Origin: Lachnospiraceae bacterium
Lineage (GTDB): Bacteria; Bacillota; Clostridia; Lachnospirales; Lachnospiraceae
NCBI GenBank assembly: GCA_024696825.1
Contig: JAILGL010000070.1
Coordinates: forward strand, 1-36,138
Length of the DNA: 36,138 nt
Reading direction: 5' to 3'
The position numbers were made by a program, and so were the translations under genes. The notes beneath the pieces were generated by a model. The model had not been told where the DNA came from. It worked only from the letters and a program-made list of their open reading frames with translations, and made no database searches. Of this stretch, positions 14,213 to 30,865 are shown in pieces (position 1 is the stretch's first letter; each line of letters starts with the position of its first letter).

Positions 14213-15026
14213 GTTTATTAGCTCCTTACATAATGATTATAGTATAAAAGATTATAGTTATATGTAGTTATATGTACTGAAATATGTATGCAGCTTATAT
14301 GTAAAAATATACATAAAAGAGTATACAAATTTATATAACCATAACCTATCTAATTTTATATCAAAATGAGAAAAATTACAAGAAAATATGAAGAAAGTCA
14401 TATATAAAAATGGGATAGTTATCAACAAATGTGGATAACTTGTTAATAAAAATGTTGATTATTATGGATAAAATTAAATGCTTAAAAATCGGACTTTTTC
14501 ACAAATGTGAATAAAAATGTGAATAAATGGGGGTATTTTTTTTATAACTAACATTTAATCCACAAAATGTGGATAAAAAAGATATGTTTATAAAAATGTT
14601 TACTACAAAAGTAGAATAGTATATTATAGATAAAAACATGTGTGGATAAATTATGTGGATAATTGTTTATTACCGTTGCGGAAAACTAGATAATGTATGT
14701 TATTATTTTCGAACACAATATGAGTTTCTTCCTATTATAATGTAAAATATAAAAAATGATTATTATCATGTTTTTCCACCAAATAACCAAAATTATCAAC
14801 ATTCATATCACAACTTATTCACATAGTTATCAAGAAGCTTTTGAAAAATTTTTTCATCTTATTAGAAGTTATCAACCATTTTTGTCCACTTTTACACATT
14901 ATTTTTTTAGTTTATTAGATAAAAATATCTTCTGTTCTCCTTTTTATTTTTCTGGATGATCTTTTATGATCCTTTAATTTGTCTTCAGAGAATACTAAAG
15001 AATACTGAAAAATAAGTAAAAACTAC
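14213..15026. other. Chromosomal replication origin (oriC) with DnaA-box cluster
   Basis: About 0.8 kb of non-coding, very AT-rich DNA between divergent dnaA and rpmH. Perfect DnaA boxes (TTATCCACA) on the minus strand are at 14430-14438, 14568-14576, 14641-14649 and 14654-14662. One-mismatch boxes on the minus strand are at 14506-14514 and 14518-14526. One-mismatch plus-strand boxes are at 14419-14427 (TTATCAACA), 14556-14564 (TAATCCACA), 14793-14801 (TTATCAACA) and 14815-14823 (TTATTCACA). Strong boxes left of 14.67 kb point one way and those right of 14.79 kb point the other. ATATGTA-type repeats fill 14250-14330. Divergent gene direction on the two sides supports bidirectional replication starting here. 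Confidence 0.92.
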
Positions 15027-20228: not shown

Positions 20229-20356
20229 GAATAGAAAAAGAAAAATGTAGTTAAAAAGTAAGGTAAAAATAATGTATGTAAATAGGAATATATGAAAATA
20301 TGTTAATACATTAATATATAAATATATTTTATAAATGTTGGAAAGTGAGATTTACA

Positions 20357-22231
20357 ATGTATACTTATGAAGAATACGATGTAGTAGTCGTAGGTGCAGG
20401 ACATGCAGGTTGTGAAGCAGCTCTGGCATCTGCAAGACTTGGTATGAGAACTTTAATTTTTACTGTTAGCGTTGACAGCATAGCTATGATGCCTTGTAAT
20501 CCTAATATTGGTGGTACTTCTAAGGGGCATTTGGTTAGAGAACTTGACGCTCTTGGCGGTGAAATGGGTAAGAATATTGACAGAACATTTATACAATCTA
20601 AGATGTTAAATAAGTCAAAGGGCCCTGCTGTTCACTCTTTAAGAGCTCAGGCAGATAAAAAAATGTACAGTAAACAGATGAGAAAGGTTCTTGAAAATAC
20701 CGATAATCTCGTAATTAAACAGGGTGAAGTTGCTGATATAAAGGTTGAAAATGGTAAGGTTACAGGTGTACTTACAGCAACAGATGCATTTTATCCTTGT
20801 AAAGCTGTAGTATTATGTACCGGAGTTTACCTTAATGCAAGATGTATAACAGGTGATGTTAGTTCATATACAGGACCAAATGGACTTGCAAGTGCTACTC
20901 ATCTCACAGCTAATCTTGAAAAATTAGGAATTGAAATGAGAAGATTTAAGACAGGAACACCTGCAAGAATTGATAAAAGAACTATAGATTTTTCAAAGAT
21001 GACAGAGCAAAAGGGTGATACACCAGTTGTACCATTTTCATTTTCAACTGATCCTGACAGTGTCCAGAGAGAACAAATTTCCTGCTGGTTAACTTATACT
21101 AATGAAGAAACTCATGAAATAATAAGAGATAATATCGACCGCTCTCCTCTTTATGCAGGAGTAATTAAATCAACAGGACCAAGATATTGTCCTTCAATTG
21201 AAGATAAGGTAATGAGGTTTGCTGATAAAAACAGACATCAGGTGTTTATAGAACCTGAGGGAGAGTATACAAATGAAATGTATATTGATGGAATGTCCAG
21301 TTCCATGCCTGAGGATGTACAGGTTAGAATGTACAGATCAGTACCGGGACTTGAGAATGCTCAAATTGTTAGAAATGCATATGCTATAGAATATGATTGT
21401 ATTAATCCTCTCCAACTTAAAGCAACTCTTGAATTTAAAAAGATAAAAGGTCTTTTCAGTGCAGGACAGACTAATGGATCTTCTGGATATGAAGAAGCTG
21501 CAGGTCAGGGATTAGTTGCAGGTATTAATGCAGCCCTTGAGGTAGCAGGCAGAGAACAGATAATACTTGATCGTTCTGATGCTTATATCGGAGTTCTTAT
21601 AGATGACCTTATTACTAAAGGAACTAATGAGCCATATAGAATGATGACTTCAAGAGCTGAGTACAGATTATTGTTAAGACAGGATAATGCTGATATAAGA
21701 CTTAGAAAAATTGGTCATGATGTAGGACTTGTACCTGATGATGTTTATGAAAAGTTTTTAGTAAAGCTTGATATGATTAAGAAGGAAATTGCAAGAGTTA
21801 AAACAGTTAATCTTGGCTCAAGTGATAAGTTAAATGCAATACTTGCTGCAAATAATAGTAACCCTGCAGAGAATGGAATTTCTTTATATGAACTTATAAA
21901 GAGACCTGAGTTATCCTATGAAATAATAAAGGATGTGGATGTAGACAGACCAGATCTTCCACAGGAAGTTCAGGATCAGGTTAATATCTCAATTAAATAT
22001 GAGGGTTATATCAAGAGACAGGAAAGACAGGTATTTGGATTTAAGAGAATGGAATTAAAGAAGATACCAGCTGACCTTGACTACAATGATGTATATAGTT
22101 TAAGAAAAGAAGCTGTTCAAAAGTTAAATGACATTAAACCTGAAAATGTTGGTCAGGCATCCAGAATATCCGGAGTATCACCTGCAGATATATCAGTTCT
22201 ACTTGTTTATCTGGAAAAGTTAAAAGGATGA
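20357..22231 (+). CDS. mnmG: tRNA uridine-34 carboxymethylaminomethyl modification enzyme MnmG
   Basis: A 624-residue FAD enzyme. The dinucleotide-binding motif is [13 protein letters not shown] near the N-terminus. The family signatures [17 protein letters not shown] and [18 protein letters not shown] follow. With MnmE it builds the wobble-uridine modification. A GTG at 20345 is in frame, but the ATG at 20357 fits the family start ([15 protein letters not shown]) and has GTGAG upstream. The gene is followed by a terminator that contains a ParB site. Confidence 0.97.
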
Positions 22232-22318
22232 TAAGTAGATGATGTAATGGTAATGCTTATATAGTTGTTTAATAAGTAAAGATATATAAAGGTAGTAATT
22301 ATATATGGTGATTATATA

Positions 22319-22351
22319 GGAGAATGTTTCACGTGAAACATTCTCCTTTTT
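22319..22351 (+). terminator. Terminator of mnmG built around parS site 1
   Basis: GGAGAA and TTCTCC flank a perfect parS (22325-22340), making a flawless 28-bp palindrome (22319-22346) that is followed by TTTTTATAT. As RNA it gives a stem of about 12 bp with a minimal loop and a U tail, the layout of an intrinsic terminator. The same DNA is therefore a ParB site and a transcription end signal. Confidence 0.8.
22325..22340. promoter_or_regulatory. parS site 1 (ParB binding)
   Basis: TGTTTCACGTGAAACA matches the Bacillus parS consensus at all positions. It stands 141 bp (start to start) from the next site and is embedded in the mnmG terminator palindrome. Confidence 0.95.
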
Positions 22352-22401
22352 ATATGGAAGAAATAGAAAGGATAAGAAGTATTAGATCTGATAAAAAATA
22401 A

Positions 22402-22440
22402 TTATCAACAATGTTATTAACTTTTGTTGATAACATTGTT
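22402..22440. promoter_or_regulatory. Inverted pair of DnaA-box-like sequences between parS 1 and 2
   Basis: TTATCAACA (22402-22410) and its inverse TGTTGATAA (22425-22433) are one mismatch from the DnaA consensus and match the weaker boxes in oriC. They overlap a perfect 11-bp inverted repeat, AACAATGTTAT (22407-22417) and ATAACATTGTT (22430-22440). They could bind DnaA or simply form a hairpin. Confidence 0.45.
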
Positions 22441-22465
22441 TGTGATATAAAAATATCGATTTTAT

Positions 22466-22481
22466 TGTTTCACGTGAAACA
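22466..22481. promoter_or_regulatory. parS site 2 (ParB binding), first of the tandem array
   Basis: A perfect TGTTTCACGTGAAACA. The next site begins 56 bp later. The linker begins TTAGGACGGAT and resembles those of the following units. Confidence 0.95.
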
Positions 22482-22521
22482 TTAGGACGGATACCAAAAT
22501 TAGAATAATATAATCACAAAT

Positions 22522-22537
22522 TGTTTCACGTGAAACA
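22522..22537. promoter_or_regulatory. parS site 3 (ParB binding)
   Basis: A perfect TGTTTCACGTGAAACA. The next site begins 58 bp later. The linker begins TCAGGATCGATTCC. Confidence 0.95.
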
Positions 22538-22579
22538 TCAGGATCGATTCCAAAAAATAGAAATCATATCACCACAAAT

Positions 22580-22595
22580 TGTTTCACGTGAAACA
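22580..22595. promoter_or_regulatory. parS site 4 (ParB binding)
   Basis: A perfect TGTTTCACGTGAAACA. The next site begins 57 bp later. The linker begins TCAGGACGGATTCC. Confidence 0.95.
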
Positions 22596-22636
22596 TCAGG
22601 ACGGATTCCAAAAATTGAAATCATATCAACATAGAA

Positions 22637-22652
22637 TGTTTCACGTGAAACA
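22637..22652. promoter_or_regulatory. parS site 5 (ParB binding)
   Basis: A perfect TGTTTCACGTGAAACA. The next site begins 57 bp later. The linker begins TCAGGATAGATTC. Confidence 0.95.
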
Positions 22653-22693
22653 TCAGGATAGATTCAAAAATTAGAATAATATCAACATAAAAC

Positions 22694-22709
22694 TGTTTCA
22701 CGTGAAACA
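22694..22709. promoter_or_regulatory. parS site 6 (ParB binding), last of the array
   Basis: A perfect TGTTTCACGTGAAACA. The sequence after it no longer follows the repeat linker, so the array ends here, about 150 bp before rsmG. Confidence 0.95.
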
Positions 22710-22779
22710 TTTACATAAGTCAAAAGTTGATATGGATCTTTCCTGAATAATATTTATCAAATCTATTATTAAATTTTCA

Positions 22780-22862: not shown

Positions 22863-23591
22863 ATGAGTGATTTTAATACTAAGCTTGGAAAGCTTTTACA
22901 AGCTGAGAATATAAATGTGGAAGAAGAGCAGCTTAATAAGTTGGAGGTCTTCTATGAAATGATAATTGAAAAGAATAAGGTAATGAATCTTACAGCTATT
23001 ACGGATGAAGATGAATTTATCATTAAACATATTTATGATTCAATTATCATGATGAATTATTATAATCTAAATGAGTTGGAAGAGAATGATAAGATTTTAG
23101 ATCTTGGAACGGGGGCTGGTTTTCCCGGAGTTCCTCTTGCAATTATGAATCCGAAGTTACATTTTGTATTAGTTGATTCCTTACAAAAGAGATTAGATTT
23201 TATTGACGATGTTTGTAAAGAAATAAATATTAATAATGTAACAACTATTCATTCCAGATTTGAGGATTTGGGTAGAGATGAAGATTATAGAGAAAAATGT
23301 AAGCTGGTTGTTTCAAGAGCAGTTGCTCCACTGAATATATTAATGGAATATGCTATTCCTTTCATAGTTCCCAATTATAATTTTATTGCTTATAAGTCTA
23401 AGGAAACTGAAAAGGAAACCATGGAAGCTGAGAATGCATTTGATAAACTGAAGTGTGCGATTAAAGACAGGTTTGACTATAAGCTTCCAAATATTAATGA
23501 GGACAGAACAATACTCGTTATTAATAAGAAGGAAGCTACGGATAATAAGTATCCAAGAAAGGCTGGAAAGCTTCAGAAAAAACCGTTGTAA
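22863..23591 (+). CDS. rsmG: 16S rRNA (guanine-527-N7)-methyltransferase RsmG
   Basis: A 242-residue Rossmann methyltransferase. The SAM-binding motif is ILDLGTGAGFPGVPLAI near residue 80, preceded by the family's N-K-V-M-N-L-T-A-I-T and the substrate segment K-H-I-Y-D-S. It methylates G527 of 16S rRNA; loss of this activity is known to give low-level streptomycin resistance. The gene is in its usual place between mnmG and parA, but here it is separated from mnmG by the 631-bp parS region. AAAAGGA stands about eight bases ahead of the ATG. Confidence 0.96.
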   Translation: MSDFNTKLGKLLQAENINVEEEQLNKLEVFYEMIIEKNKVMNLTAITDEDEFIIKHIYDSIIMMNYYNLNELEENDKILDLGTGAGFPGVPLAIMNPKLHFVLVDSLQKRLDFIDDVCKEININNVTTIHSRFEDLGRDEDYREKCKLVVSRAVAPLNILMEYAIPFIVPNYNFIAYKSKETEKETMEAENAFDKLKCAIKDRFDYKLPNINEDRTILVINKKEATDNKYPRKAGKLQKKPL

Positions 23592-23786: not shown

Positions 23787-24557
23787 ATGGGTAAAATAAT
23801 TGCAATTTCCAACCAAAAGGGTGGTGTAGGAAAGACCACAACAGCTATTAATTTATCAGCTTGTTTGGCAGAAAAAGGTAAGAAAGTATTGCTTGTGGAT
23901 ATCGATCCTCAGGGTAATGCAACCAGTGGTTTGGGAATAGATAAGACAACAGTTGAACACTCAAGCTATAAGCTTCTTACCGGGGTAGATGATGTTTTAG
24001 TAACTTTACATCCAAAGACAGCTATGGAAAATGTAACGGTTATTCCTGCAGAAAGAGATTTGGCAGGTGCTGAGATAGAGATGCTTTCCATAGATGATAA
24101 AGAATACATTTTAAAGAATGCACTTCACAGAATTAGGAACACATTTGATTTTATTATAATTGATTGTCCGCCTTCACTTAATATGCTTACAGTTAATGCA
24201 CTTACGGCGGCAGACACAGTTATGGTCCCAATTCAGTGTGAGTATTATGCATTGGAAGGATTGGCTGAACTTATGTATACCATTTCATTGGTTCAGAAAG
24301 GTCTTAATCCGGATCTTAGAATCGAAGGAATAGTATTTACTATGTATGATGCCAGAACATGTCTTTCCTTGGATGTAGTAGAGGATATTAAACTTAATAT
24401 CGAGGAGAAAGTATTTGAATCAATTATTCCAAGAAATGTTCGTCTTGCTGAGGCGCCAAGTCATGGAATGCCAATAAATGTATTTGATCCAAAATCAAGG
24501 GGAACAGAAAGTTATAGAAATCTTGCTGACGAGGTTATAGCAAATTTAAATAACTAA
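23787..24557 (+). CDS. parA: Chromosome partitioning ATPase ParA/Soj
   Basis: A 256-residue ATPase with the deviant Walker A K-G-G-V-G-K-T-T at residues 11-18 (the Lys at 11 is the signature residue), Walker A' (L-L-V-D-I-D-P-Q-G-N-A) and Walker B (I-I-I-D-C-P-P-S). ParA binds DNA nonspecifically when loaded with ATP, is stimulated by ParB, and in Bacillus (Soj) also controls DnaA. The frame is open for 30 more codons upstream, but the ATG at 23787 fits the family start and has GGAAAAGAG ahead of it. It lies 56 bp before parB. Confidence 0.97.
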   Translation: MGKIIAISNQKGGVGKTTTAINLSACLAEKGKKVLLVDIDPQGNATSGLGIDKTTVEHSSYKLLTGVDDVLVTLHPKTAMENVTVIPAERDLAGAEIEMLSIDDKEYILKNALHRIRNTFDFIIIDCPPSLNMLTVNALTAADTVMVPIQCEYYALEGLAELMYTISLVQKGLNPDLRIEGIVFTMYDARTCLSLDVVEDIKLNIEEKVFESIIPRNVRLAEAPSHGMPINVFDPKSRGTESYRNLADEVIANLNN

Positions 24558-24613: not shown

Positions 24614-25477
24614 ATGGCACCAAGAAAAAGAGGATTAGGTGGTAAAGGAATCAACACACTTATCGAAGCCAGCAACACAGATAATGGAGCTACTGAAATT
24701 GATATTAACAAGGTTCAGCCGAATTCAAAGCAACCAAGAAAAAATTTTAATGAAGATGCATTAAATGAATTGGTTGAGTCAATTAAGAGTTTGGGTATTA
24801 TCGAACCACTTATTGTTAATAAGAAATCTAAGGAAGGTTTTTATGAAATCGTTGCAGGTGAGAGACGTTGGAGAGCTGCTAAGCTTGCCGGTATCAAAAA
24901 GGTTCCTGTTATTATAAAGGACTATAGTGATCAGGAAGTTATGGAGATAGCTCTTGTTGAGAATATTCAGAGGGAAGACCTTAATCCTATCGAAGAAGCT
25001 GAGGCCTATAACAGTTTGATAAAGGAGTACAAGCTTACACAGGATCAGGTTGCTGAGAAGGTGTCAAAGAGTAGAACAGTTATTACAAACTCCATCAGAC
25101 TTTTAAAACTTGATGAAAAAGTTAGACAGATGGTAATAGAAGAGAAGCTTACTAACGGTCACGCCAGAGCACTTCTTTCTATCAAGGATAAGAAGAAACA
25201 GTTTGAGGTTGCAACACTTATATTTGACAGTAGCATGAGTGTTCGTGAAACTGAGAAATATATTAAAAAACTTCTTAATTCTTCTAATTCAAAGAAGAAG
25301 GCAAAACAGCCGCAGACTGCTATGGACGCTATATACAGCAAGTATGAGGAAAGACTCAGAGAAAGCATTGGTTCAAAGGTATCTATTAAAAGTGCTTCTA
25401 ACGGCAAGGGTAAGATAGAGATAGAGTATTATTCCAATGATGATTTTGAGAGAATTGTAGAGATATTATCTAAGTAA
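24614..25477 (+). CDS. parB: Chromosome partitioning protein ParB/Spo0J
   Basis: A 287-residue ParB. The N-terminus has the ParA-contact motif G-L-G-G-K-G-I-N-T-L. The CTPase/nuclease-like domain carries IVAGERRWRAAKLA and E-N-I-Q-R-E-D-L-N-P, which bind CTP. A helix-turn-helix (L-T-Q-D-Q-V-A-E-K-V-S-K-S-R) follows for parS recognition, and the C-terminal dimer domain is at about 235-287. ParB clamps load at parS and slide along DNA. Its likely targets are the six perfect parS sites 2 kb upstream. GAGAGGG precedes the ATG. Confidence 0.97.
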   Translation: MAPRKRGLGGKGINTLIEASNTDNGATEIDINKVQPNSKQPRKNFNEDALNELVESIKSLGIIEPLIVNKKSKEGFYEIVAGERRWRAAKLAGIKKVPVIIKDYSDQEVMEIALVENIQREDLNPIEEAEAYNSLIKEYKLTQDQVAEKVSKSRTVITNSIRLLKLDEKVRQMVIEEKLTNGHARALLSIKDKKKQFEVATLIFDSSMSVRETEKYIKKLLNSSNSKKKAKQPQTAMDAIYSKYEERLRESIGSKVSIKSASNGKGKIEIEYYSNDDFERIVEILSK

Positions 25478-25500: not shown

Positions 25501-26028
25501 ATGAGTATATTTGAAATGATTGGAATTGATGCAGGTTATGTAATTTTAGGATTATGTGCCCTTTGCATTATTCTTTTAATTATGGTTATAGTGGCACTTG
25601 TAAAAATCGGTCATATGAAGAAAAACTACGAGAAGCTTATGGATGGTAAGGATGGTCAGAGTCTTGAGGAAGCAATTCTTAGAAAGTTTTCAAGTATCGA
25701 TGTTTTAGAAAAAAATGTTATTGATATTTACAAGATTCTTGAGTCACATGATAACAGACTTACTAATACTTATCAGAAATTAGGCGTTGTAAAATACGAT
25801 GCATTTAAGGAGATTGGTGGAAAGCTCAGCTTTTGTATAGCGCTTCTTACAGCTAATAATGATGGATTTATTATTAATACAATGCATAGCTCAAAGGAAG
25901 GTTGCTATACCTATACTAAAGAAATTGCAAATGGAGAGTCATTTGTTACTCTTTCAAAGGAAGAAGAAAAGGCTCTTTTAAAGGCAATTAATTTTAGTAA
26001 AAATGATGCTTACGAGGATGAAGATTAA
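25501..26028 (+). CDS. DUF4446 membrane-anchored protein
   Basis: A 175-residue protein with one N-terminal transmembrane segment (about 12-35, YVILGLCALCIILLIMVIVA). A coiled-coil-like stretch and the DUF4446 core follow (V-V-K-Y-D-A-F-K-E-I-G-G-K-L-S-F and the I-I-N-T-M-H-S pattern). The family is usually encoded right behind parB in Clostridia. Its function is unknown to me; the position suggests a link with chromosome segregation or the membrane. It starts 23 bp after parB, so it is probably the last gene of parA-parB, and a strong terminator follows. Confidence 0.88.
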   Translation: MSIFEMIGIDAGYVILGLCALCIILLIMVIVALVKIGHMKKNYEKLMDGKDGQSLEEAILRKFSSIDVLEKNVIDIYKILESHDNRLTNTYQKLGVVKYDAFKEIGGKLSFCIALLTANNDGFIINTMHSSKEGCYTYTKEIANGESFVTLSKEEEKALLKAINFSKNDAYEDED

Positions 26029-27176: not shown

Positions 27177-27935
27177 TTAATTGTTATTAGCAAAAACCGT
27201 TATATCTTCTAATTTAATTTTTCTATTTAAAACATTCAAATCTATATATTTTTGATCTCCATTAAAGCCTTCAAGTTCACCAAGATCAGTATATTGCCAA
27301 ACTTCCCAGTCATTTCCGGCATCGATAAATACGTGATAATAAACGCTTCGTCTCCAGCGGGTACAATCCTTAAAATCACCTTTTAAAAACTTCTTTTCGA
27401 TTGAACGAGGCGCATAAATCATAGGCTTTACGCCATATTCTGCCTCAATGGTTTTAATGTAAGACCGGAGTTCTTTAACTACAGCCTCTCTTTTTGGTGG
27501 ATGGATTTTCTTGTCGGCGTAGTATTCAACATCAACTACAGGTAACAGAGATCCCTCCAAATCACCAACTGTTGCAATAAAGTTCTGGGCCTGGGTTTTG
27601 CCGCTGCTGTCAAATGAAAAGAAATGATATGCACCTCGTACCAAACCGGTATTAGCTGCATTTTCCCAATTTGTTTGAAAATATCTGTCAACGTGTGAGC
27701 TTCCCTCTGTAGCCTTAATATAAACAAATTTTATATTTTGCTCTTTTAACCTTTGCATATTTACATCGCCCTGATATACGGATAAATCAACTCCGATGGT
27801 ATCTGTTTTTTTAATAAAATATTTGTTTATCAATAGCTTTTTTGTTTTCAACAAATAACATAGAGCGACGAAGATTAAGAAAAGCAAAAATAGTATTATA
27901 ATAATGGCAATAACTGCCTTCTTTTTCTTAGTCAA
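27177..27935 (-). CDS. Membrane-anchored GH25 muramidase (lysozyme)
   Basis: A 252-residue protein. After K-K-K-K comes one transmembrane segment (residues about 7-28), then a GH25 domain from about residue 45 to the end. The catalytic motifs are visible: IGVDLSVYQGDVN with the conserved Asp, L-P-V-V-D-V-E-Y with the acidic pair, and W-Q-Y-T-D. GH25 enzymes cut the MurNAc-GlcNAc bond of peptidoglycan. The start is a TTG at 27933-27935, chosen because GGAGG lies five bases upstream and because earlier starts would run into the upstream gene. It lies 73 bp behind the kinase-like/LRR gene. Confidence 0.93.
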   Translation of the reverse strand: MTKKKKAVIAIIIILFLLFLIFVALCYLLKTKKLLINKYFIKKTDTIGVDLSVYQGDVNMQRLKEQNIKFVYIKATEGSSHVDRYFQTNWENAANTGLVRGAYHFFSFDSSGKTQAQNFIATVGDLEGSLLPVVDVEYYADKKIHPPKREAVVKELRSYIKTIEAEYGVKPMIYAPRSIEKKFLKGDFKDCTRWRRSVYYHVFIDAGNDWEVWQYTDLGELEGFNGDQKYIDLNVLNRKIKLEDITVFANNN

Positions 27936-28008
27936 AACAACCTCCAAATCAAAGTTACCCCATTGAAAATGAGTATAACATAACAGGATGTAAAAATCTA
28001 TATGAATT

Positions 28009-29601
28009 CTATATAATAATTTGGCAATCAGGATGATTGGAGGTAAAGTTATTAAGGCTCTCTTCAGATATTTTGGTACCATGAAGATTTAGAAATTTTA
28101 ATTCCGAAAAATTGGAGAGAACAGATATATCAGAAATATCAGTATCTGAGATATCCAAGTAAGTAAGATTTATTAATTCTTTAATGGGACTTAAATCCTT
28201 AATGGGATTGTCATTAAGAACAAGAATTTTAAGGCTGTTAAGCCCTGATAGTTCATCTAAATTTTCCAGTTTATTATTACTTAGATAAAGCTCTGAAATA
28301 TAGGTAAATGCAGCGATTCCGTCAGTGCTTTTTAGAAAATTATCATGAAGATAAAGTATATTTACAGAGTCAGCAAATTTTTTAGAAAGCTTATCCTTTG
28401 GTAAGGAGGTTATGCTTTCTAATTTTGAATTGGAGAAATCTGCAGAGGTATCCTCTGAAATATTTTCATTTTTGTTTGGAGAAGTAGAGACCTTTTTTTG
28501 TGTAGTTTTTAATGCAGATTTTTTTGAAAAAACAGGAGCATTAAATGCTATAAAAAAAGTAGAAATTATCAAAAAAATCCATAGAAAAATATATCTAAAT
28601 TTTGGTCGTTTTAGCTTCAAAAATTTAGAGGTAATTGAAGGCATATTTATTATGATTTTAGAGTGCTTTTTTGTAGGTTTTGAAGGGGTTTTAAACCTTG
28701 TATTTTCAATGGTTTCAGGTCCTATATTATCAGATATTTTTTCTGTTTTTTTATAGATAATATTTTGGATTTTTTGGCTTAAAATTATATCTTCTGAAAA
28801 TACATTTTCGTTGTCAAATTCCTTATTAAATTCTTCGTAAATTTTATAGTTAATTTCTTCTAAAGCAGATAAAATATCATCCCATTCAGAAGAATTTATA
28901 TCAATTAAATTTTCCTCTAATTTTATAAGAATACTTATATTAAAATCAAAGGCCTCATATAATGAGTCCAATTGAAACAATTCATTTTGAAGAATTAACC
29001 TATTATTAGAGGATTTTGCATTATTAGAGGATTTTTCACTATTAGAAGTTTTTGCATTATTAGAGGATTTTGCATTATTATAATTATCATATGGAAAATC
29101 GCATAATGCGGCCACATTTAAGGCTTCTTTAATTAACATATTTGGAATGGAAATATCCTTATGAGTTAATCCATTTCTATGAAGGACAATTATAGCCTCT
29201 AAGACATTATTAAAATAGCCTAAAAGGGTTGATTTAGTGACACTATTTGATTCGATTAGTTTAGTTAGAGGTGTGAGATTATCAAATATTAAAATCACAT
29301 AGTAGTCATTTATATATTTATTTGTTGGGGTGCAAAGCATAGGACATTTAATCTTTGTAAGCTTATTATAATAATCATGAGAAAAATTATTTTTTGGTAT
29401 TAACTTAGCTATGTAAGATGCATCGTCTATGCTATTTTTGCAGCGAAAAACAAAGGAGCTGTCGTGATCAGAGAGCTCCTCTGTTATGGTATACTCCTCT
29501 AAAAATGTTTCAGGGAGCTTTCGTAAAAGTTTTCTTCCCGGATTATAATAAGCAGAGTCAGTATTAATTGTTTGGTCTGAATTGATATTATTAGTTGTCA
29601 T
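28009..29601 (-). CDS. Transmembrane protein: degenerate kinase-like domain inside, leucine-rich repeats outside
   Basis: A 530-residue protein. Residues 35-170 look like the core of a Ser/Thr-kinase fold: K66 in Y-I-A-K-L, the catalytic-loop-like HKDISIPNMLI with D149 and N154, and D-F-P (D168) in place of D-F-G. The glycine-rich loop is missing, and after D-F-P comes a repeat of S-S-N-N-A-K type (173-200) instead of a normal activation loop. The rest of the C-lobe (201-280) is short. One transmembrane segment spans about 336-354, preceded by basic residues, so the N-terminus is inside. Residues 411-515 carry about five leucine-rich repeats (L-Y-L-S-N-N-K-L-E-N-L, L-V-L-N-D-N-P-I-K-D-L). The ATG at 29601 follows AGGGGG. 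Whether it is an active kinase is open. Confidence 0.75.
   Translation of the reverse strand: MTTNNINSDQTINTDSAYYNPGRKLLRKLPETFLEEYTITEELSDHDSSFVFRCKNSIDDASYIAKLIPKNNFSHDYYNKLTKIKCPMLCTPTNKYINDYYVILIFDNLTPLTKLIESNSVTKSTLLGYFNNVLEAIIVLHRNGLTHKDISIPNMLIKEALNVAALCDFPYDNYNNAKSSNNAKTSNSEKSSNNAKSSNNRLILQNELFQLDSLYEAFDFNISILIKLEENLIDINSSEWDDILSALEEINYKIYEEFNKEFDNENVFSEDIILSQKIQNIIYKKTEKISDNIGPETIENTRFKTPSKPTKKHSKIIINMPSITSKFLKLKRPKFRYIFLWIFLIISTFFIAFNAPVFSKKSALKTTQKKVSTSPNKNENISEDTSADFSNSKLESITSLPKDKLSKKFADSVNILYLHDNFLKSTDGIAAFTYISELYLSNNKLENLDELSGLNSLKILVLNDNPIKDLSPIKELINLTYLDISDTDISDISVLSNFSELKFLNLHGTKISEESLNNFTSNHPDCQIII
29002..29073. repeat. 18-bp coding minisatellite (4 units) in the kinase-like gene
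   Basis: Four 18-bp units of ATTATTAGAGGATTTTGC type with a few changes (29002-29019, 29020-29037, 29038-29055, 29056-29073). They encode the hexapeptide repeat N-N/S-A/E-K-S/T-S. The length is a multiple of three, so copy-number change would alter the protein without breaking the frame. Confidence 0.85.
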
Positions 29602-29632
29602 AAATCCCCCTATCAAACGCTATAATTATATC

Positions 29633-30865
29633 TTACTTAAGTATTTTTACTGTACAGGTATCTAAAATATTTCCATCTAAATCCTTTAAAATTAGTGAGG
29701 TTAAGCCTTCTTTTAAAGCGATTATTTCTGTATCATTTATTTCTAATTTTGTTATATCCAAACAGAAAAATTCATAGCTTGTTGCATTATAATTATCCAT
29801 TAAATCAGAGAAGGAAAGCTTCTCGTTTTTTTGTAATTTAATAAATGAATTTTTAAGCTTAACTGATGTGTAATTATTATCGGAATTAGTGCTGTTTTTC
29901 TCGTTGTTTTTCTTGTTATTTTTGTCTGAATTTTTGTCTGAATTCTTGGCAGATTTATTACCTGAGTTTTTACCTGAATTTTTATCTGTTTTTTTACTGG
30001 AATTAGTATCAGAAATTTGAGAATTTTTATCTGTATTTTTGTCTGAATTTTTTCCATTAAAATTATGAGAATTTACACCATTACTATATGCTGTAACACC
30101 ATTATTTACAGTCTTTGAAGAACTTGTATCCGACGAGTTATTAGTATCATTTTTAATGGACTTATTACTTGTTTTTTTGGATGAATTATTCTTCTTATTT
30201 GAGGTGTTATTTTTGTTATTTTTACTGGAGTTATTATTCGAGTTTTTACCCTTATTTTTACTGCTATTATTACCTGAATTTTTACTCTTATTATCTACCT
30301 TAGAACTTGTTGTTTTCTTTGTGTTATTATTTGCAGTAGACAGAGTAAGGGTTAGTTTATAATATACGCTTTCGCTATTTTGATTAGTTACAGTTAGCTT
30401 ATAAGTATCTAAGTTGTTAAGCTTATAGGTTGCCTTAAAGCAGGCTCCACCTGATGTATAACTTAGAGTGCTTTGCCTCTGAATTACACCTGCGGAGGAG
30501 TAGAGTTTTAGTGGTAGCTTACTTATATATTCTTTCTCACAATTAAGACTTATACTTAGAAGCTGACCGGTTTCTTTTGTGCTTATATTATAGGTTTTTG
30601 AAGCATAAGGGGAGAGTGTTTTAGAGTAGGTTTTTACTGTAGAATTAGTTGCAGCTGTAACTAATATTTCACCTGAAAAATTACCTACCTGTTTTCTGGA
30701 TTCAAACAGATTAAAGCTAAGGCTAAGTATCAAAATTAGCCCAAATATTTTTTTAAAATGTATATTTCTTAAAAAATTATTAGAAGCAATGTTATTAAAA
30801 AAAATTTTACTAACTTTCTTACTTTTCAACGCATTAAAAAAATGTGATTTCCGCCGATCTTCCAT
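29633..30865 (-). CDS. Anchored surface protein with Asn/Lys/Ser linker and Ig-like C-terminus
   Basis: A 410-residue protein of unknown function. A basic cytoplasmic start is followed by one hydrophobic segment (about 40-54, IFGLILILSLSFNLF) that serves as signal or anchor; no lipobox is seen. Residues about 70-175 look like a beta-sandwich (alternating T/Y/L strands). Residues about 176-330 are a repetitive Asn, Lys, Ser and Asp linker (K-N-S-D-K-N, N-N-S-S-K-N). The last 80 residues resemble a bacterial Ig-like (BIG2) domain: L-K-N-S-F-I-K-L-Q-K-N-E-K-L-S at the start and the I-A-L-K-E-G-L-T-S-L-I-L-K strand near the end. It lies 31 bp upstream of the kinase-like/LRR gene, so the two products may act together outside the membrane. 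Confidence 0.65.
   Translation of the reverse strand: MEDRRKSHFFNALKSKKVSKIFFNNIASNNFLRNIHFKKIFGLILILSLSFNLFESRKQVGNFSGEILVTAATNSTVKTYSKTLSPYASKTYNISTKETGQLLSISLNCEKEYISKLPLKLYSSAGVIQRQSTLSYTSGGACFKATYKLNNLDTYKLTVTNQNSESVYYKLTLTLSTANNNTKKTTSSKVDNKSKNSGNNSSKNKGKNSNNNSSKNNKNNTSNKKNNSSKKTSNKSIKNDTNNSSDTSSSKTVNNGVTAYSNGVNSHNFNGKNSDKNTDKNSQISDTNSSKKTDKNSGKNSGNKSAKNSDKNSDKNNKKNNEKNSTNSDNNYTSVKLKNSFIKLQKNEKLSFSDLMDNYNATSYEFFCLDITKLEINDTEIIALKEGLTSLILKDLDGNILDTCTVKILK

Follow-up and report, generated by a model that had tools for sequence, protein, structure and literature searches.

ParB loads at parS sites, closes with CTP and slides to spread (PMC8299390, PMC7053999), and it recruits both ParA and SMC (PMC8299390, PMC7053999, PMC7083940). 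In Bacillus subtilis, eight parS sites are scattered over ~0.75 Mb, an arrangement that is the exception and belongs to few lineages, clustered parS being the bacterial norm (PMC8357415). Corynebacterium glutamicum has ten sites (parS1-10), which lie near oriC, separately and mostly between genes, over 35 kb; a single parS suffices in this species, yet more parS sites lead to larger ParB clusters (PMC7083940). The closest published precedent for the locus described here is the parS cluster of Myxococcus xanthus, in which 24 parS sequences are located upstream of parAB (PMC3778016).

The stretch of DNA analysed here (the window, 36,138 nucleotides) is contig C82 of a draft assembly of 2.47 Mb from a gut-type member of Lachnospiraceae, which comprises 185 contigs, is 95.9% complete and is apparently metagenome-derived. 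Its gene order is dnaN-dnaA on the minus strand, then oriC, followed on the plus strand by rnpA-yidC-jag-mnmE-mnmG, the parS array and rsmG-parA-parB, with dnaA, dnaN, rnpA, yidC and jag assigned from translations only. The relevant features are these:

14419-14823, no strand: oriC, a DnaA-box cluster upstream of dnaA with a GC-skew switch
20345-22231, plus strand: mnmG (TIGR00136, 871 bits)
22318-22352, plus strand: predicted intrinsic terminator of the mnmG transcript, a 13-bp stem formed by the extended palindrome AGGAGAATGTTTCACGTGAAACATTCTCCT and followed by a T-tract
22325-22340, no strand: parS site 1, perfect, separate from the tandem array and central to the terminator stem
22402-22446, no strand: long hairpin with imperfect pairing, located between sites 1 and 2 (-20.1 kcal/mol, z -6.4), of doubtful significance
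22464-22710, no strand: 57-bp tandem array, five perfect parS cores and four related linkers
22863-23591, plus strand: rsmG (TIGR00138, 161 bits against a cut-off of 99.5)
23787-24557, plus strand: parA (soj; AAA_31, 236 bits)
24614-25477, plus strand: parB (spo0J; ParB_N, HTH_ParB and ParB_C domains)

All six parS sites, which together span 385 bases of the mnmG-rsmG gap, match the 16-bp palindromic consensus TGTTTCACGTGAAACA at 16 of 16 bases, and they start at 22325, 22466, 22522, 22580, 22637 and 22694, in steps of 141, 56, 58, 57 and 57 bp. The initial annotation had placed them at exactly these bases and had given the same steps for sites 2-6, which Tandem Repeats Finder calls independently as a 57-bp array of 4.3 copies. 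It had also described the linkers as drifted copies around unchanged cores, a description borne out by a mean linker identity of 75% among sites 2-6, compared with 37% in shuffled linkers, and by 17 variable columns out of 43 in the linkers against none of 16 in the core (Fisher p=0.0015). There are four linker copies for the five cores; the sequence joining site 1 to site 2 and that following site 6 do not belong to the repeat, and site 1, 141 bp upstream of site 2, has a flank unrelated to the array. With at least three parS, a regular step and homologous linkers, the locus falls into our working class of tandem parS arrays.

No further site with two or fewer mismatches is present in the window, where the sole three-mismatch site lies at 30665; dinucleotide shuffles of the window gave a mean of 0.2 matches at up to three mismatches, and none reached seven. 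Across the whole draft assembly, no site beyond these six comes within one mismatch of the consensus, a single two-mismatch site is found on contig C29, and base composition predicts ~0.0009 perfect sites per genome. The many equally strong sites elsewhere that the initial annotation had said would speak against its reading are thus absent from the draft genome. The array repeat was not found as a dispersed element in the genome.

The parS sites are origin-proximal, ~7.6 kb from oriC, where the GC skew switches at about 14-15 kb, and they lie 1-2 kb upstream of genes encoding a cognate ParA and a full-length ParB with all three canonical domains. The nearest named relatives of this ParB are from Lachnospiraceae draft genomes, on which the family assignment used here rests, and its identification as Noc was rejected (254.8 bits, under the cut-off of 315). 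Contig C10 encodes a full-length SMC (TIGR02168, 1053 bits, above cut-off). In this genome there is no parS in the rsmG-parA gap, the usual location in the family. A DUF4446 protein (PF14584) is encoded at 25501-26028, directly 3' of parB, and further downstream a leucine-rich-repeat protein that also has a transmembrane segment and a kinase-like N-terminus (28009-29616) neighbors a GH25-like muramidase (27177-28082), both recognized by eye from translation only. An Rfam search of the window returned one tRNA and nothing else.

Like the Myxococcus xanthus cluster, this locus gathers many parS in one origin-proximal region beside parAB and does not rely on scattered sites. The M. xanthus cluster is larger, however, with sites on both strands and a varying consensus, whereas the present array consists of six perfect palindromes, five of them with a 57-bp period. 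C. glutamicum shares the identical 16-bp parS near oriC together with ParB and SMC (PMC7083940), but its sites form no tandem repeat. Bacillus subtilis likewise shares the parS sequence and the ParB and SMC system, but its sites are not clustered.

The initial annotation had set the array against chromosomal parS sites scattered singly, as in Bacillus. That contrast does not hold and is misleading, because tight clustering into doublets or triplets is already the norm in Lachnospiraceae. Members of the family usually have two to three perfect sites (298 Lachnospiraceae genomes), and only six of the 298, the present one included, have at least six. Among the 31 multi-site genomes listed, 30 have all perfect sites within 2.8 kb; the median span is ~310 bp, and in 13 the sites lie within 120 bp. 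The family doublets and triplets resemble the present sites in sequence, in their origin-proximal neighbourhood and in spacing (36-60 bp in many genera). They differ in number and in position, since parS occurs between rsmG and parA at 46 of 48 loci, while the mnmG-rsmG gap contains parS at one of 50 comparable loci, the present one. The congener G001 has three parS in the usual place and an mnmG-rsmG gap of 47 bp. Two other congeners, G002 and G003, were left out as negative evidence, their assemblies being without a parB contig; G003 has a degenerate parS-like sequence just past rsmG, near a contig end. Judged by the sequences of these relatives, the putative centromere has been amplified and also shifted by one gene relative to the family norm.

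Comparable arrays occur elsewhere in the family. At least three perfect sites at steps of 36-66 bp were found in 16 of 397 Lachnospiraceae genomes; in a class-wide draw, the same search returned the present genome and one outside the family (G570). Arrays with related linkers are present in nine genera with periods of 36-122 bp:

present genome: 57 bp
G113: 52 bp
G350: 54 bp
G253: ~61 bp, 17 sites
G141: 58 bp
G221: 52 bp (called from two linkers)
G380: 39 bp
G081: 36 bp (called from two linkers)
G040: 122 bp (outside the 36-66-bp search range and added to the nine-genus count)

The G253 array (locus L025), the largest seen, has 17 parS-like sites with up to two mismatches at ~58-64-bp steps and is apparently a two-unit higher-order repeat. 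The 52-bp array of G113 (L022 and L023) runs off two contig ends, and it may be that short-read assemblies under-count parS arrays. Homology of linkers between genera was rejected, the only matches being weak and AT-rich except between the two halves of one array. The conservation of array spacing that the initial annotation had named as support for its reading is not found; period and linker are particular to each array-bearing genus. Eight changes of the tandem state are required on a tree built from parA-parB-mnmG at 54 loci, in which the sister of the window's own locus has no array. Tandem arrays thus appear to have had at least about eight independent origins in Lachnospiraceae; the tree speaks to independence and not to frequency, because its loci were chosen partly for having arrays. 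The remaining clusters have unrelated linkers, so that tight clustering also arises without duplication.

Site 1 is a parS that is also a predicted intrinsic terminator stem, with a stem and T-tract 87 nt after mnmG. The stem has a folding energy of -19 kcal/mol (z -7.1), and site 1 is the sole terminator-like match in the region, against 0.2 expected. Sites 2-6 have neither the extended stem nor a T-tract. Among the 210 perfect parS at the family loci that were retrieved, palindromic pairing continues past the 16-mer by at least four extra pairs in 20%, compared with 1.8% at offset controls. T-rich tails follow 12 of 25 parS with at least five extra pairs and 24 of 185 others (p=0.00012, a value that is approximate since sites within one genome are not independent), and there is no matching enrichment of upstream A-runs at the sites with at least five extra pairs. 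Part of the palindromic extension may reflect an extended preference of ParB, but the strand-specific T-tract points to a subset of parS that doubles as predicted terminators. Similar cases in the family include L009:811, L035:8321, L039:8533 and L055:8625 (analysed orientation). No paper on an overlap of parS and terminators was found, which is weak evidence given that subscription journals lay outside the search.

The hairpin at 22402-22446 has 20 pairs and is followed on the minus strand by a T-rich stretch. It carries an inverted pair of DnaA-box-like TTATCAACA motifs, at 22402 and 22425. The idea that DnaA boxes generally accompany parS was rejected, their density being 1.7 per 10 kb near parS and 2.0 elsewhere, with no link across the family, and the pair is therefore probably incidental.

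It is improbable that the six palindromes are mainly transcription signals, acting in the mnmG-rsmG region as terminators or regulatory hairpins and not as ParB sites. Site 1 has the look of a bona fide terminator stem and the T-rich tails in the family fit such a role, but the five array sites are bare of both terminator elements, and all six are exact copies of the parS consensus, beside parAB and oriC; termination would be a second role of site 1 and not a replacement of its role as parS. Capture of a plasmid or phage centromere seems far-fetched. The iterated sites do have a layout like that of plasmid centromeres, a comparison made in the initial annotation, yet it finds no support at the sequence level: among plasmid and phage records, none is similar to the array and none covers most of it. 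The sites fit the chromosomal consensus, the flanks are core genes in conserved order, and a second ParB was not found in the genome. An assembly artefact, which the initial annotation had named as fatal to its reading, is scarcely credible either. The draft, apparently metagenomic nature of the assembly leaves room for one, and the split G113 array means that exact copy numbers can be wrong; however, the linkers differ from unit to unit and the longest exact repeat inside the array is only 29 bp, which makes an artefact unlikely, and unique genes flank the array on both sides within a single contig.

Neutral amplification, in which slippage duplicated a parS doublet and the cell relies on one or two of the sites while carrying the others to no functional gain, is a possibility, if a rather doubtful one. 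It competes only with the proposal of added strength and not with the centromere identity, so that our confidence in the two overlaps. Copy number and period vary freely among genera, one site is sufficient in C. glutamicum (PMC7083940) and G001 has only three sites, in the usual place, all of which speak for it. Unneeded copies should, however, decay as fast as the linkers, whereas the five cores here are intact and 40% of linker columns are variable (p=0.0015), and the cores of the eight other arrays are largely intact as well. Core-centred gene conversion may be an alternative cause of their integrity.

The six sites thus very probably serve a ParABS-SMC system as its chromosomal centromere, one that local tandem duplication has amplified; this reading is supported by six consensus parS with essentially none elsewhere, their proximity to oriC and parAB, and the presence of an encoded SMC. 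In the proposed mechanism, an ancestral doublet or triplet would have expanded by unequal recombination or replication slippage, after which selection would keep the cores while the linkers drift. Every parS would catalyse closure of the ParB-CTP clamp, which would then slide into flanking DNA, and six adjacent gates would together concentrate loading in one zone, from which the partition complex is seeded and SMC is loaded. The terminator at site 1 would block mnmG transcription from the array, leaving a ~0.4-kb intergenic platform ahead of the rsmG promoter. A common helical phasing of the arrays was rejected: the periods in different genera correspond to 3.4, 3.7, 5.0, 5.4, 5.9 and 11.6 helical turns and share no phase, so the sites are most likely independent gates and not one phased cooperative surface. 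We infer that the array adds ParB loading strength; since one parS can suffice in C. glutamicum, the additional sites may bring robustness or no benefit at all.

The present array amplifies an otherwise ordinary component, and the single locus is of less interest than the recurrence of such arrays by independent origin and the overlap of parS and terminator. Many bacteria keep several parS although one can suffice. The roughly eight array origins, with 3 to 17 sites and at least one sister species lacking an array, constitute a natural copy-number series, in which one could ask if ParB loading and SMC flux are tuned by the number and spacing of parS. The overlap of parS with terminators points to a simple means of excluding transcription from the loading zone. 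Tentatively, and with the balance of probability still against it, it may be that Lachnospiraceae centromeres evolve repeatedly and convergently into satellite-like arrays, in which the core is selected, period and linker are free, copy number tunes ParB loading and some parS act as insulating terminators. If so, these arrays would be a bacterial analogue of fast turning-over centromere repeats.
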